Positions 26,624 through 31,465 of a stretch of 55,218 nucleotides of DNA are shown here, in pieces. Source of the DNA: Bifidobacterium breve (GTDB lineage: Bacteria; Actinomycetota; Actinomycetes; Nanopelagicales; Nanopelagicaceae); the NCBI GenBank assembly GCA_945860275.1, contig CAMAPN010000005.1:1-55218 (forward strand). Direction: 5' to 3'. Within the stretch, counting starts at the first letter, position 1. The number at the start of each line of letters is the position of its first letter. Both the position numbers and the translations under genes were made by a program. Under the pieces are notes generated by a model that was not told the DNA's origin, made no database searches, and saw only the letters and a list, made by a program, of their open reading frames with translations.

Positions 26624-27102
26624 CGATTATCTCCGTGATAACTTCCGCCGCGCCACGAGAGCACAGCCATTACGGCAACCGAAAGGACTATCGCTGAATC
26701 GGCAATATTAAATAGCGCCCAATTTGGTAGGCCGATCCAATCGACAACGTGGCCGCGAAATGGTCCGGGATCGCGGAAGAGACGATCGGTGAGATTGCCC
26801 ATGACGCCACCGATTAAACCAGCCCACGGATAGCTCCATGCTCGAATCGAAACGCGTGGGATACGAATGAGAAGGTAAAGGAGGACGAAAACACTGATGG
26901 CGGTGAGTGCGAAGGTGGCGCCAGTAAATGAGCTAAATGCCGCGCCGGGATTACGTGCAAACTCCCAACGCAAAAATCGCCCAATGACATATTGAACCGG
27001 TTTGCCTTCGAGCGTTTCTACTGCCCAGATTTTTGTGGCGAGATCGAGTAGGTAAACGGCGAGCGCACCGCTAGAGATAATCCGCCAATGCGAGGTGCGA
27101 AT
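26620..27102 (-). CDS. lspA: Lipoprotein signal peptidase, apparent ATT start
   Basis: Membrane aspartyl protease that cuts the signal peptide before the lipidated cysteine. Catalytic aspartates D106 (GNLTDRLF) and D135 (FNIADSAI) are present, as is WEFARNPGAAFS. The frame has no ATG, GTG or TTG from the upstream stop until a TTG at 26973, which would delete the first membrane segment (GALAVYLLDLATK). The frame is open back to the upstream gene, and ATT at 27102 overlaps that gene's stop (TAATT), with GAGGAG 8 bases before it. Starting there gives 160 aa, the family's normal length. The identity is firm; the ATT start is inferred from spacing and length. Confidence 0.9.
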   Translation of the reverse strand: MRTSHWRIISSGALAVYLLDLATKIWAVETLEGKPVQYVIGRFLRWEFARNPGAAFSSFTGATFALTAISVFVLLYLLIRIPRVSIRAWSYPWAGLIGGVMGNLTDRLFRDPGPFRGHVVDWIGLPNWALFNIADSAIVLSVAVMAVLSWRGGSYHGDNR

Positions 27103-27986
27103 TAGCGTCGCTCCTCTTTCTGTTTGCAGAGCATGCAGAGTGTGGCCCGAGGGAAAACTTGTAGTCGCGCTTTACCTATTGGGTTTCCGCAGATTTCACA
27201 TTTGGTGTAGCTGCCTGCCGCAATGCGCGCGAGCGCTAATTCTGTTTGCAAGACAAGATCTTGCGCGTTGTAAACAAGCGAGAGCTCATGTTCTCGTTCA
27301 AAAGTCTTGGTTCCTGCATCGGCTTGATCATCACCAGCGCCATCCGAAGAGTCTTGCAATAACTCAGCAGCTTGAGCCTCAGCAGAGGCAAGCTCTTGCT
27401 TGTAGGTGGCCAAATCCTTTGTCAGTCGAGCCTTCATCTCTTTCAACTCATCTTTGCTCCACGGATTCTCTGAGCCCGAGACAATCAAAGGCGTAGGAAT
27501 GTCGCGTAAGGGCTTCAAAGCGTGTTTGCTCTTACGCTCGACCTTCGGCGGAGGCGGCAGTAATAAACGTCTTTGGAAACCATCATTGGGAGTACTTGAG
27601 CCACTCGAATTCGATGGCGTTGCAGAGGTAGCAGAGCTCGCACCCGAGCTCCCCCCTGCAGATTTGCTTGCCTTGCTCGCCTTACCAGCAGCTGGCGCGC
27701 TCTTGACTGGTGCCGGTGTTGGTGCGCTCTCATTCTTCTTGGGAAATGGTCGCCCCTTGCTTGCTGCTGGAGCTTTTTTGATGGGCTTGGCTGACTGAGC
27801 AGGCTTGGCAGGTTTCGCCGGAGCTTTCTTTATTGGCTTAACAGACTTGGCAGGGGCTTTCTTAACAGGCTTGGCTGGTGCTTTCTTGCTGGGTTTGGCA
27901 GGTTTCGCCGGAGCTTTCTTTGCCAGCTTTTTCGCCGGAGCTTTCTTTGCCAGCTTTTTCGCCGGAGCTTTCTTCGCAGGTGCCAT
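27102..27986 (-). CDS. DksA/TraR-type zinc-finger protein with a Lys/Ala/Pro-rich N-terminal tail
   Basis: The C-terminal part (about residues 180-294) has a coiled-coil hairpin and a Cys4 zinc finger, CEICG and CMLC separated by 17 residues, as in the DksA/TraR family, which binds RNA polymerase. The first 80 or so residues are repeats of KKAPAKK and PAKP, like a histone H1 or HupB tail, followed by a Ser/Ala/Pro linker. I chose ATG 27986 (294 aa), which begins directly with the repeats; upstream ATGs at 28046 and 28067 remain possible. It precedes lspA with overlap. A homologue occupies this place in Streptomyces (SCO2075 by memory). DNA or RNA binding by the tail is inference. Confidence 0.85.
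   Translation of the reverse strand: MAPAKKAPAKKLAKKAPAKKLAKKAPAKPAKPSKKAPAKPVKKAPAKSVKPIKKAPAKPAKPAQSAKPIKKAPAASKGRPFPKKNESAPTPAPVKSAPAAGKASKASKSAGGSSGASSATSATPSNSSGSSTPNDGFQRRLLLPPPPKVERKSKHALKPLRDIPTPLIVSGSENPWSKDELKEMKARLTKDLATYKQELASAEAQAAELLQDSSDGAGDDQADAGTKTFEREHELSLVYNAQDLVLQTELALARIAAGSYTKCEICGNPIGKARLQVFPRATLCMLCKQKEERR
27907..27976 (-). repeat. 27-bp tandem repeat coding for the lysine-rich tail
   Basis: Two perfect 27-base copies (27907-27933 and 27934-27960) and a partial third copy code for the unit KLAKKAPAK. Part of the unit recurs with its flank near 27806-27832. The in-frame period makes expansion or contraction by slippage likely, so tail length may vary between strains. 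Confidence 0.85.
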
Positions 27987-28090
27987 GGCCGAGAAGGGTA
28001 GCCCCTTTTTCCTCAAATTTCGCACTCTAAGGGCGCTAAACTTCATCCCATCCTCTAGGTTCGACATGGCCTAGGGGCAACTGCGTCGGT

Positions 28091-28336
28091 ATTGAGGCCA
28101 TCACCTCGAGAGCAGAGCGGAAGAAAGGCTTTGCGCGAGGAAATCTCGCAAAAAGCGAAGTAGAACCGAAAAATGTCAGAAGTGATCTGAGCGCGAGAGG
28201 CGCGCCTGGATAAAGCAGGTGGTACCGCGGCTTCACAAGAGTCGTCCTGCTCACTGAAGTCTGCGCATATCTGCATATATAGATATATATGAAGAATGCA
28301 TCAGAATTCAGAGGATGAGCCGGGGGCGCACTGCAG
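28091..28336 (+). promoter_or_regulatory. ileS T-box riboswitch, ultrashort Stem I, translational type
   Basis: Stem I is UUGAGG/CCUCGA (28092-28097 with 28104-28109), and its 6-base loop CCATCA carries isoleucine specifier ATC at 28100-28102. Stem II is TTTGCG-C-GAG with CTCGCAAA (near 28130-28152); a GC-rich Stem III lies near 28189-28208. The T-box core GGTGGTACCGCGG is at 28218-28230, and TGGT can pair with the 3' ACCA of uncharged tRNA-Ile. GCAGG/CCTGC (28215-28219 with 28246-28250) forms the antisequestrator. CCGCGGCT (28225-28232) can instead pair, with one mismatch, to AGCCGGGG (28318-28325), hiding the G-rich ribosome site before the ATG at 28337. This matches the known actinobacterial ileS class. 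No promoter is confidently placed in the rest of 27987-28090. Confidence 0.92.
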
Positions 28337-31300
28337 ATGAATCCACCAATCAACTCACGCACATATGAGGCCTTGCCAACGCATGTAGACCTTCCAGCGA
28401 TGGAACGTGAGATTCTTGAATTTTGGAAGCGCAGTGGCATCTTCGACAAAAGCATCGCGGCTCGAAATGTGACGGGCGCACAGCAGTGGAGCTTTTATGA
28501 AGGCCCCCCAACGGCAAATGGCCTACCTGGCACCCATCACATCGAAGCGCGCGTATTCAAGGATGTCTTTCCACGTTTTCATACGATGAAAGGAAAATAC
28601 GTTCCTCGTCGCGCTGGCTGGGATTGTCACGGATTGCCGGTCGAGCTTGCCGTAGAGAAAGAACTTGGTTTTACCGGAAAGCAAGATATCGAGAAATACG
28701 GTGTAGCGCAGTTCAATCAAAAATGTCGCGATTCGGTATTGCGCCATGTCGATGCATTTACTGAGATGACCGAGCGGATGGGATTCTGGGTTGATTTTGA
28801 TAAGGCATATTGGACGATGTCGAGTGAGTATGTGGAGAGCGTTTGGTGGTCACTCGCGCAGATTTGGAAGAAGGGGTTACTCGTCCAAGACCATCGCGTA
28901 GCGCCGTATTGCCCGCGATGTGGCACAGGGCTCTCCGATCACGAACTTGCGCAGGGCTACGAGAACATCACAGACCCTTCGGTCTATGTGAAATTTCCAA
29001 TCACTTCAGGTCCGTTTGAAAAATTGGGCGCATCGTTTCTTGTGTGGACGACTACTCCCTGGACACTTGTTTCTAACACCGCGATTGCAGTTCACCCTGA
29101 AGTTACGTATGTGTTAGCTGAGAGTGAGAGCGAGAAACTAATCGTTGCAGAAGATCTACTAAGTTCTTTAGGTGATGGTTTCACCGTCACAGAGAAGATT
29201 TCTGGACGAGAGCTCGAACATACAAAGTACCGCCGACCATTTGATTGGGTTGATATTCCTGATGCACATTTCGTGGTGCTCGCGGAGTATGTAACAACAA
29301 CCGATGGAACGGGACTAGTTCACCAATCCCCCGCCTTTGGCGCAGACGATCTCCAAGTCTGTCGAAAATACAACCTCCCAGTTGTTAATCCGATCATGGG
29401 CGACGGCACCTTTGAGAAATCCATTCCATTAGTAGCAGGCATGTTCTTCAAAGAGGCAGACAAACCGCTCGTGAAAGAACTAAAAGCACATGGACTACTT
29501 TTTAAACAACAAAATTATGAACACTCCTATCCACATTGTTGGCGATGCCATACGCCGCTGATGTACTACGCACAACCCTCTTGGTATATCCGTACTACGG
29601 CGATCAAGGATGCGTTACTGCGCGAGAATGAGAAGACCGATTGGCATCCAGGCACCATCAAAACAGGTCGTTATGGGGATTGGCTCGAGAACAACATCGA
29701 TTGGGCGCTCTCCAGAAATAGATACTGGGGCACGCCACTACCCATCTGGCGTTGCGAAAACGGCCACATGATCTGCGTGGAATCACTCGCTGATCTCTCG
29801 GCGCGCGCGGGTAAGGATTATTCTGCCCTCGATCCGCACCGCCCTTACGTCGATGATGTTGTGCTCCAGTGCGCCGAGTGCCAGAGCTCTATGGTGCGAG
29901 TGCCTGAAGTAATTGATTGTTGGTACGACTCTGGCGCGATGCCATTTGCTCAACTTGGCTATCCACATAAACCAGGTTCACATGAAGAGTTTGCGGCTAC
30001 CTATCCAGCAGATTTCATCTGTGAAGCAATTGATCAAACTCGTGGATGGTTCTACACCCTGATGACAATTGGCACGCTGGTCTTTGATAAATCATCCTAT
30101 AAAACAGTGCTCTGCCTCGGTCACATCCTCGATAAAGATGGTCGCAAGATGAGTAAGCATCTCGGGAATGTGCTTGAACCGATTCCGCTCATGGATCGAC
30201 ATGGTGCAGATGCCGTTCGATGGTTCATGTTGGCCGCTGGTTCTCCATGGTCAGCTCGTCGAGTGGGCCATGATGCAATTAGTGAAGTTATTCGCAAATC
30301 ACTTCTGACCTATTGGAATACCGTCTCATTCTTGACTTTGTACGGGAGCGTTGCGAATTTCGTCCCCACGGGCGAACTTCGACTCATTCATTCTTTGGAT
30401 CGTTGGATCATTGCAGAGCTCAATCAAACCATCGCAACCGTTGATGGTGCGTTGAACGATTTTGATTCACAAGAGGCCGGTCGCGCGCTTGCCCACTTCA
30501 TCGACGATCTCTCGAATTGGTATGTCCGTCGCTCACGCCGGAGATTCTGGGATGGCGAAGTCGATGCGCTCGAGACGCTCCATCACTGCATCGAGCAACT
30601 CACTCTCCTCATGGCGCCCATGGTTCCATTCATCTCAGAACAGGTGTGGCAGAAGGTGCTGCGACCAGTCGACAGCTCTCTCCCAGAGTCGGTCCATCTC
30701 GCCGATTTCCCCACCTCTGATACGAAGCTAATTGATCAATCGTTGATGACCAAGGTGGCAACCACTCGGAGAATCGTCGAACTGGGACGAGCAGCGCGAG
30801 CAACCTCGCAAGTTAAAATCAGGCAACCGTTAGGCCGAGCGCTCGTTGCTGGGTATTCACTCTTAGATACAGAGCTGCAAGAACAAATCGCCGATGAACT
30901 TAACGTCCATCGAATTGAAGATATCTCACAGGTTGGAAGTGATTTGGTGACCTATGCGGTGAAAGCAAACTTCCGAAGCCTTGGCGCTAAATATGGCGCA
31001 GCAGTCCAAGCGGCAGCGAAAGCTATCGCCAGTAAAGAACCTGGCGAACTCGTGCGTGCCGTGCGAAGCGCAGGTACGGTGACGGTCGGAGAATTCGAAG
31101 TCGCTACTGAAGATTTGGTCATTACTGAGACACCAAAATCTGGCTGGGCAGTTGCAAGTCATGACGGGGAATCGGTTGCGCTAGATCTAGAACTAAATCC
31201 CGAGTTAATAACAGAGGGTTATATCCGTGAAATTATTCGCGTGATCCAAGAAGAGCGTAAGCAAAGTGGCTTACACGTTTCTGATCGAATTCATCTGGCA

Positions 31301-31465
31301 TGGAACGGAGATGCGGAGATTATTCGCGCTTTCGCTTCAGGTGGTGAAGAGATTGGTCAAGAAGTCTTGGCGTTATCGATTACTCGAAATGAAATTCTTT
31401 CCCTGCCAAGTGCTGATTCTGGAGACGATCAATTGCCAATAGCAATTCAGATTACGAAAGTTTAA
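28337..31465 (+). CDS. ileS: Isoleucyl-tRNA synthetase (eukaryote-like IleRS2 type)
   Basis: Class I synthetase that charges tRNA-Ile, with an editing domain removing valine. The ATP motif region reads GPPTANGLPGTHHIEAR, with HHIE at 67-70, and KMSK lies at 604-607 (DGRKMSKHLGN). The CP1 editing region includes LVWTTTPWTL. The length of 1042 aa and the ANGLPGTHH form are those of the long, eukaryote-like group found in actinobacteria such as Mycobacterium, a group noted for low mupirocin sensitivity. It is the only plus-strand gene between 1 and 48800, diverging from the TraR gene and ending 4 bases from yggT. Expression should rise when uncharged tRNA-Ile accumulates. Confidence 0.98.
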   Translation: MNPPINSRTYEALPTHVDLPAMEREILEFWKRSGIFDKSIAARNVTGAQQWSFYEGPPTANGLPGTHHIEARVFKDVFPRFHTMKGKYVPRRAGWDCHGLPVELAVEKELGFTGKQDIEKYGVAQFNQKCRDSVLRHVDAFTEMTERMGFWVDFDKAYWTMSSEYVESVWWSLAQIWKKGLLVQDHRVAPYCPRCGTGLSDHELAQGYENITDPSVYVKFPITSGPFEKLGASFLVWTTTPWTLVSNTAIAVHPEVTYVLAESESEKLIVAEDLLSSLGDGFTVTEKISGRELEHTKYRRPFDWVDIPDAHFVVLAEYVTTTDGTGLVHQSPAFGADDLQVCRKYNLPVVNPIMGDGTFEKSIPLVAGMFFKEADKPLVKELKAHGLLFKQQNYEHSYPHCWRCHTPLMYYAQPSWYIRTTAIKDALLRENEKTDWHPGTIKTGRYGDWLENNIDWALSRNRYWGTPLPIWRCENGHMICVESLADLSARAGKDYSALDPHRPYVDDVVLQCAECQSSMVRVPEVIDCWYDSGAMPFAQLGYPHKPGSHEEFAATYPADFICEAIDQTRGWFYTLMTIGTLVFDKSSYKTVLCLGHILDKDGRKMSKHLGNVLEPIPLMDRHGADAVRWFMLAAGSPWSARRVGHDAISEVIRKSLLTYWNTVSFLTLYGSVANFVPTGELRLIHSLDRWIIAELNQTIATVDGALNDFDSQEAGRALAHFIDDLSNWYVRRSRRRFWDGEVDALETLHHCIEQLTLLMAPMVPFISEQVWQKVLRPVDSSLPESVHLADFPTSDTKLIDQSLMTKVATTRRIVELGRAARATSQVKIRQPLGRALVAGYSLLDTELQEQIADELNVHRIEDISQVGSDLVTYAVKANFRSLGAKYGAAVQAAAKAIASKEPGELVRAVRSAGTVTVGEFEVATEDLVITETPKSGWAVASHDGESVALDLELNPELITEGYIREIIRVIQEERKQSGLHVSDRIHLAWNGDAEIIRAFASGGEEIGQEVLALSITRNEILSLPSADSGDDQLPIAIQITKV

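Follow-up and report, generated by a model that had tools for sequence, protein, structure and literature searches.

A putative ultrashort-Stem-I translational T-box upstream of ileS in Nanopelagicaceae, and a Stem I that departs from the K-turn signature

Can a T-box leader with a very short Stem I do without the K-turn signature that its relatives carry, and which of its strands would close the ribosome site? We address these questions at the ileS locus of a 1.30 Mb, 92 % complete genome from the GTDB family Nanopelagicaceae (acI), genus of IMCC26077. The window, by which we mean the whole 55,218-nucleotide stretch of DNA that was analysed, is contig 5 of this genome. The encoded IleRS is 85-87 % identical over its N-terminal 400 aa to that of isolate IMCC26077 and of two metagenome assemblies, while the more distant relatives by ileS are freshwater acI / Candidatus Nanopelagicaceae genomes. 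When 60 relatives were searched at the DNA level, only two congeners gave a match to the leader itself. Later comparisons were therefore routed through ileS, with ileS upstream regions gathered from ~170 relatives. The start codon of ileS is at 28337 and the T-box lies directly upstream. The features of the locus are as follows, R1 being a covariance model built from 25 aligned ultrashort T-boxes of other genera with zero members of the window's genus.

28037..28042, + strand: candidate −10 promoter element TAAACT (conservation in congeners)
28081..28115, + strand: ultrashort Stem I (R1 alignment; covarying C and NC helices in relatives)
28081-28084/28112-28115, + strand: Stem I lower helix CTGC/GCAG (R1 alignment)
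28085-28091/28110-28111, + strand: Stem I internal loop GTCGGTA/GA (R1 alignment)
28085..28091, + strand: 7-nt 5' side of that loop, in place of the K-turn NNN-GA (5'-GA absent; 3-nt insertion in the R1 alignment)
28092-28097/28104-28109, + strand: Stem I upper helix TTGAGG/CCTCGA with loop CCATCA (R1 alignment)
28100..28102, + strand: specifier AUC (isoleucine), complement of the tRNA-Ile anticodon GAU (A-T-C invariant in relatives)
28118..28168, + strand: Stem II (helices covary and S-turn strands hardly vary among relatives)
28119-28125 and 28160-28167, + strand: S-turn strands GGAAGAA and GTAGAACC (nearly invariant in relatives)
about 28184..28211, + strand: Stem III region (R1 alignment; covarying helix in relatives)
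28215..28250, + strand: antisequestrator, A1 GCAGG/CCTGC and A2 GCGGCT/AGTCGT (A1/A2 pairs; constrained ON fold of −41.0 kcal/mol)
28220-28226, + strand: T-box bulge TGGTACC (T-box core invariant in relatives)
28242..28253, + strand: predicted anti-Shine-Dalgarno strand TCGTCCTGCTCA (swap tests; MFE fold)
28254..28311, + strand: spacer hairpin CTGAAGTCTG...CAGAATTCAG (−20.7 kcal/mol, z = −4.07)
28312..28326, + strand: ribosome-site region AGGATGAGCCGGGGG (alignment of three congeners)
28337..31465, + strand: ileS, isoleucyl-tRNA synthetase, 1042 aa (ORF; identity to congeners' ileS)

To the R1 model, positions 28081-28251 match with 64.2 bits and E = 1.4e-17, an E-value to be read as rough because the calibration was shortened; the next best hit in the window has 6.4 bits, and the match is the only one in the genome. 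The R1 alignment consensus has 33 pairs, 19 of which show changes on both sides, and compensatory changes among relatives are found in Stem I, Stem II, Stem III and A2. The leader also folds more stably than its shuffles (z = −3.2). Given the R1 match, the compensatory changes and the fold, we consider that the element is not due to chance, and the actinobacterial ultrashort ileS class proposed in the initial annotation is borne out. The T-box covariance search for which that annotation had asked gave a divided answer: R1 is positive, while Rfam RF00230 reaches 23.7 bits on the window against a gathering cut-off of 93, matching in the 3' half (model positions 148-216), and has no match in a search of the whole genome. 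The low RF00230 score is in keeping with the very short Stem I of the class; TBDB needed a separate model for such T-boxes (PMC7778990).

The sequence of 28081-28339 is thus well supported as that of an ultrashort-Stem-I translational T-box on ileS, and its parts correspond to those that define class III. Stem I is short, lacks an IDTM and presents its specifier in an apical loop of 6 nt (5 or 6 nt in the class). Stem II carries the S-turn on a short lower helix of 3 bp (CGG/CCG), with upper helices GCTTT/AAAGC and GCGAG/CTCGC. The specifier AUC agrees with both the amino acid of ileS and the cognate tRNA-Ile(GAU), which the genome carries with discriminator A and without an encoded CCA. Since CCA is added after transcription to this discriminator, the mature end is ACCA and matches the UGGU of the bulge, as NCCA matches UGGN in the class. 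As RNA the antisequestrator reads GCAGG-UGGUACC-GCGGCU...AGUCGU-CCUGC, and it is mutually exclusive with the predicted Shine-Dalgarno sequestrator through the shared strand UCGUCCUGC, for which the swap tests below indicate covariation. Loop CCATCA (28098-28103) with ATC at 28100-28102, core TGGTACCGCGG at 28220-28230, GCAGG/CCTGC at 28215-28219/28246-28250, AGCCGGGG at 28318-28325 and an AT-rich stretch all lie where the initial annotation had put them. Its starting point of 28091 was ~10 nt too far downstream of the true start at 28081 and so missed the lower Stem I helix CUGC/GCAG. To call the element complete-looking was also too generous: the K-turn sequence signature, typical of class III and outside its definition, is missing from Stem I, and a pattern search did not find an F-box. 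The F-box, too, is typical of the class and outside its definition, and in N. farcinica both features are important for tRNA binding (PMC7583486). The F-box pattern (Stem IIA/B), as far as a pattern search goes, occurs in 10/84 leaders of the Stem I-Stem II type, 9 of them in loci L218-L226, and the window is without it. The one match outside these loci (L294) is likely chance.

The strand that would sequester the ribosome site can be addressed by comparing relatives. The predicted anti-Shine-Dalgarno strand TCGTCCTGCTCA has two sets of partners, A1/A2 in the ON fold or the ribosome site AGGATGAGCCGGGG in the OFF fold. In the ribosome-site region, a conserved GAGCCRGGR block holds the likely Shine-Dalgarno GGGGG (AGGAG in G001). 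A direct 5-mer table of 3' strand type versus ribosome-binding site (RBS) type is weakly informative because the RBSs share GGAGG, and duplex energies with swapped partners were therefore used, bearing in mind that any RBS resembles a Shine-Dalgarno and that the energies partly reflect this. Across 94 leaders the antisequestrator 3' strand pairs with its own RBS at a mean of −14.38 kcal/mol compared to −11.28 kcal/mol with the RBSs of other species (0 of 2000 permutations). The same comparison for the 5' core strand gives −9.04 and −8.59 kcal/mol, a difference of 0.45 (28 of 2000 permutations). These energies argue that the sequestering partner conserved across relatives is the antisequestrator 3' strand (UCGUCCUGCUCA), not CCGCGGCU, whose pairing is strong only in the window's species. 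The window's genus is informative in this respect: its A1 is GCAGG/CCTGC, relatives having mostly a CCCTCC 3' strand, and in its RBS block GAGCCAGGA or GAGCCGGGG takes the place of GGAGG. Genus strands pair with genus RBSs at −13.8 on average, compared to −9.0 and −9.7 for the cross-genus combinations. In the window's genus A1 and the RBS changed together, on this comparative evidence. The strand of congener G003 is weak in the duplex test, its own RBS ranking 33 of 94.

The initial annotation had instead paired CCGCGGCT of the core with AGCCGGGG over the ribosome site and left GCAGG/CCTGC to the alternative fold. An OFF state made by this 5' core strand, with the 3' strand forming only the alternative fold, has some merit within the window, where both strands pair well with the RBS: the 5' core strand reaches −15.5 kcal/mol, the best of the 94 RBSs tested, against −14.9 for the 3' strand, and the CCGCGGCT/AGCCGGGG pairing is present in the MFE fold of this species. 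It nevertheless contains a G-G mismatch, its counterparts in the congeners reach −8.6 and −6.9 kcal/mol with middling ranks (31 and 55 of 94), and the class-wide difference of the swap test is small. We therefore regard it as an unlikely description of the OFF state. The support in relatives that the annotation had required of its sequestrator does exist for the 3' strand with the RBS, but not for CCGCGGCT/AGCCGGGG in the congeners. The two pairings are nested rather than exclusive, because the MFE fold has CCGCGGC with GCCGGGG outside and also TCGTCCT with AGGATGA inside.

Sequestration by the 3' strand, reinforced in this species from the 5' side, is consistent with the predicted energies. 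The unconstrained MFE is −47.7 kcal/mol, compared to −41.0 kcal/mol when the antisequestrator is forced, and the mean unpaired probability of the RBS and the region near the start codon is 0.35 when free and 0.64 when forced ON. These model energies would be appropriate for a switch whose default state is OFF and which needs tRNA to turn on. We take the folding numbers as supporting only, since in congener G001 the predicted RBS accessibility hardly shifts (0.45 to 0.48). A short out-of-frame ATG frame at 28315-28368 (ATG AGC CGG ... TGA) overlaps the RBS and the start of ileS; a similar frame is present in G001 and absent in G003.

Between the two strands lies the AT-rich insert that the initial annotation had described as an unusual addition. 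It is indeed species-specific, but it forms the tip of one long imperfect hairpin (28254-28311), an ordinary stable spacer that does not differ between the predicted ON and OFF folds. The hairpin is not common to the congeners and is single copy in the genome, and an IS- or MITE-like origin is unsupported for that reason. Strand and start codon are 94 nt apart in the window, compared to 82 and 54 nt for the congeners and mostly about 40-60 nt for relatives. The hairpin resembles a lengthened spacer holding the two strands near each other rather than an added regulatory element.

The K-turn is described as essential for short Stem I-Stem II RNAs, and a review of the field asks whether any T-box works without one (PMC7583486). 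In 78 of 84 non-identical Stem I sequences, the K-turn's 5'-GA precedes the specifier loop by 4-6 nt. Three of the six exceptions (L069, L075, L213) are longer Stem I forms with a GA that, read by eye, is farther from the loop. The remaining three coincide with the window's genus, GA being present in all 81 others (three by eye). In all three T-box-bearing species of this genus the K-turn's NNN-GA/GA is replaced by an internal loop of 7 nt opposite 2 nt (GTCGGTA, GTTTGAA or GTCATCA opposite GA), in which only the last A of the 5' side, adjoining the upper helix, is conserved. An assembly error is an unlikely cause since G003 is a finished isolate genome. Stem I of the window's genus may still have a non-canonical kink. 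It is conceivable, and we propose it tentatively, that this is a working Stem II T-box without a canonical K-turn, in which the 7-nt/2-nt loop (GTYNNNA/GA) would provide another kind of kink or a flexible hinge, so that docking of Stem I on Stem II is preserved. Elsewhere in the family, Stem I of the genus g6 ileS T-boxes (L040, L041, L042, L044) is longer and holds its specifier in a side loop; the other genera of the family have the ultrashort form.

The element is patchily distributed. By R1, 69 of 151 family genomes have a T-box; for the ileS upstream regions examined in the family, 50/104 have one and 54/104 do not. It is present in three of the five species of the window's genus and absent in two (L033 and L034, corresponding to G002 and G004). 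G002 has TAAACT about 20 nt before the start codon and no leader, and G004 keeps TAAACT and AGCCAGGAGC with no T-box between them. These two cases suggest that the T-box was lost by deletion, and the patchy family distribution points to repeated loss during genome streamlining. A purine-rich GTGAGG repeat precedes the ileS start in G004, and in several genera (g2, g8, g9) none of the sampled ileS upstream regions has a T-box. One relative seems to have a second T-box (G160:C60), but this copy sits at a contig end and the relative's ileS T-box begins with base 1 of another contig, so that overlapping assembly is the most likely cause.

One could accordingly read the leader as a decaying T-box that no longer works, in a genus that is losing the element, with the K-turn gone and Stem II weakened. 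The losses in two of five species and in about half of the family, the absent K-turn signature and an R1 score that is low next to values of up to 126 bits in the family would all be explained. We nonetheless judge decay improbable: although their leaders have diverged to 66 % mean column identity, the three species retain the specifier, the S-turn strands, the bulge, A1/A2 and the RBS block that matches, A1 and the RBS changed together, and the 7-nt loop has kept its length in 3/3 species.

Upstream of the T-box, GCTAAACTT (the candidate −10 region) is identical in the three T-box-bearing congeners, and the two congeners that lack a T-box also retain TAAACT ahead of ileS. We infer TAAACT to be the −10 element from this conservation, since a generic sigma-70 scan found no promoter at the ileS leader. 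The first T-box helix follows the candidate at a distance of ~40 nt, and the leader would be roughly 290 nt long if TAAACT is the −10. A divergent ORF (27102-28067, minus strand) faces away from ileS across the promoter region; its N-terminal part is a long Lys/Ala-rich PAKKAPAKK stretch, and at its C-terminus four cysteines form a motif like that of DksA/TraR zinc-finger proteins. Regulation of transcription by intrinsic or Rho-dependent termination, instead of or besides translation, is very improbable: the majority of T-boxes do act on transcription (PMC7583486) and Rho effects secondary to translational repression are conceivable, but the complementarity to the RBS is specific and a terminator search between the core and ileS found no terminator-like site, on which ground transcriptional attenuation was rejected.

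We consider it very likely that a tRNA-Ile-responsive Class III translational T-box acts on ileS. The Stem I loop would show AUC to the anticodon GAU of tRNA-Ile, with the Stem II S-turn bracing the pairing. When the tRNA is uncharged, its ACCA end would pair with the bulge UGGU and stabilise the antisequestrator (GCAGG/CCUGC plus A2), which would hold UCGUCCUGCUCA, leave the ribosome site free and allow IleRS to be made. When the tRNA is charged, the antisequestrator would not be stabilised and UCGUCCUGCUCA would pair with AGGAUGAGCCGGGG, turning translation off. This OFF pairing would be reinforced in this species by CCGCGGC/GCCGGGG, and the spacer hairpin would merely bring the two strands together. 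The switch thus probably raises translation when isoleucine is short. The anatomy, the covariation, the tRNA and the complementarity of strand and RBS can be read from the sequences, and tRNA binding, the response to charging and the translational output are expected by analogy with the studied Nocardia and Mycobacterium relatives.

As a member of a well-known T-box class, the element is an ordinary find when taken alone. What gives it value is the natural variation at the level of a genus, where three species keep every other T-box part without the K-turn sequence signature. The joint change of the A1/anti-SD/RBS triplet offers comparative evidence for which strand sequesters, and the loss in two congeners lets regulated ileS be compared with unregulated ileS in a natural setting, among streamlined freshwater bacteria.

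The closest known systems are the Class III ileS T-boxes of Nocardia farcinica and Mycobacterium tuberculosis (PDB 6UFM, 6UFG; PMC10482949, PMC10651847), which control the same gene, present AUC in a hexanucleotide loop and also share the Stem II S-turn, UGGU bulge, antisequestrator and sequestering strand. Unlike these, the window has no K-turn GA/GA signature and no F-box found by pattern, its Stem II lower helix is 3 bp, and a 58-nt spacer hairpin separates the antisequestrator from the RBS. Compared to Rfam RF00230, the core and the antiterminator/antisequestrator half are alike and the long Stem I is missing. Other Nanopelagicaceae ileS T-boxes have the same element order, are likewise without the F-box pattern and are recognised by one model. 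The other genera have mostly a CCCTCC-type A1 3' strand, RBS GGAGG and a canonical K-turn, whereas the window's genus has GCAGG/CCTGC, RBS CAGGA or CGGGG and a Stem I internal loop that is 3 nt longer. With the actinobacterial translational ileS T-boxes (PMC1262725) and the TBDB translational class (PMC7778990) it has in common the hairpin that sequesters the Shine-Dalgarno of ileS, with no difference in principle.
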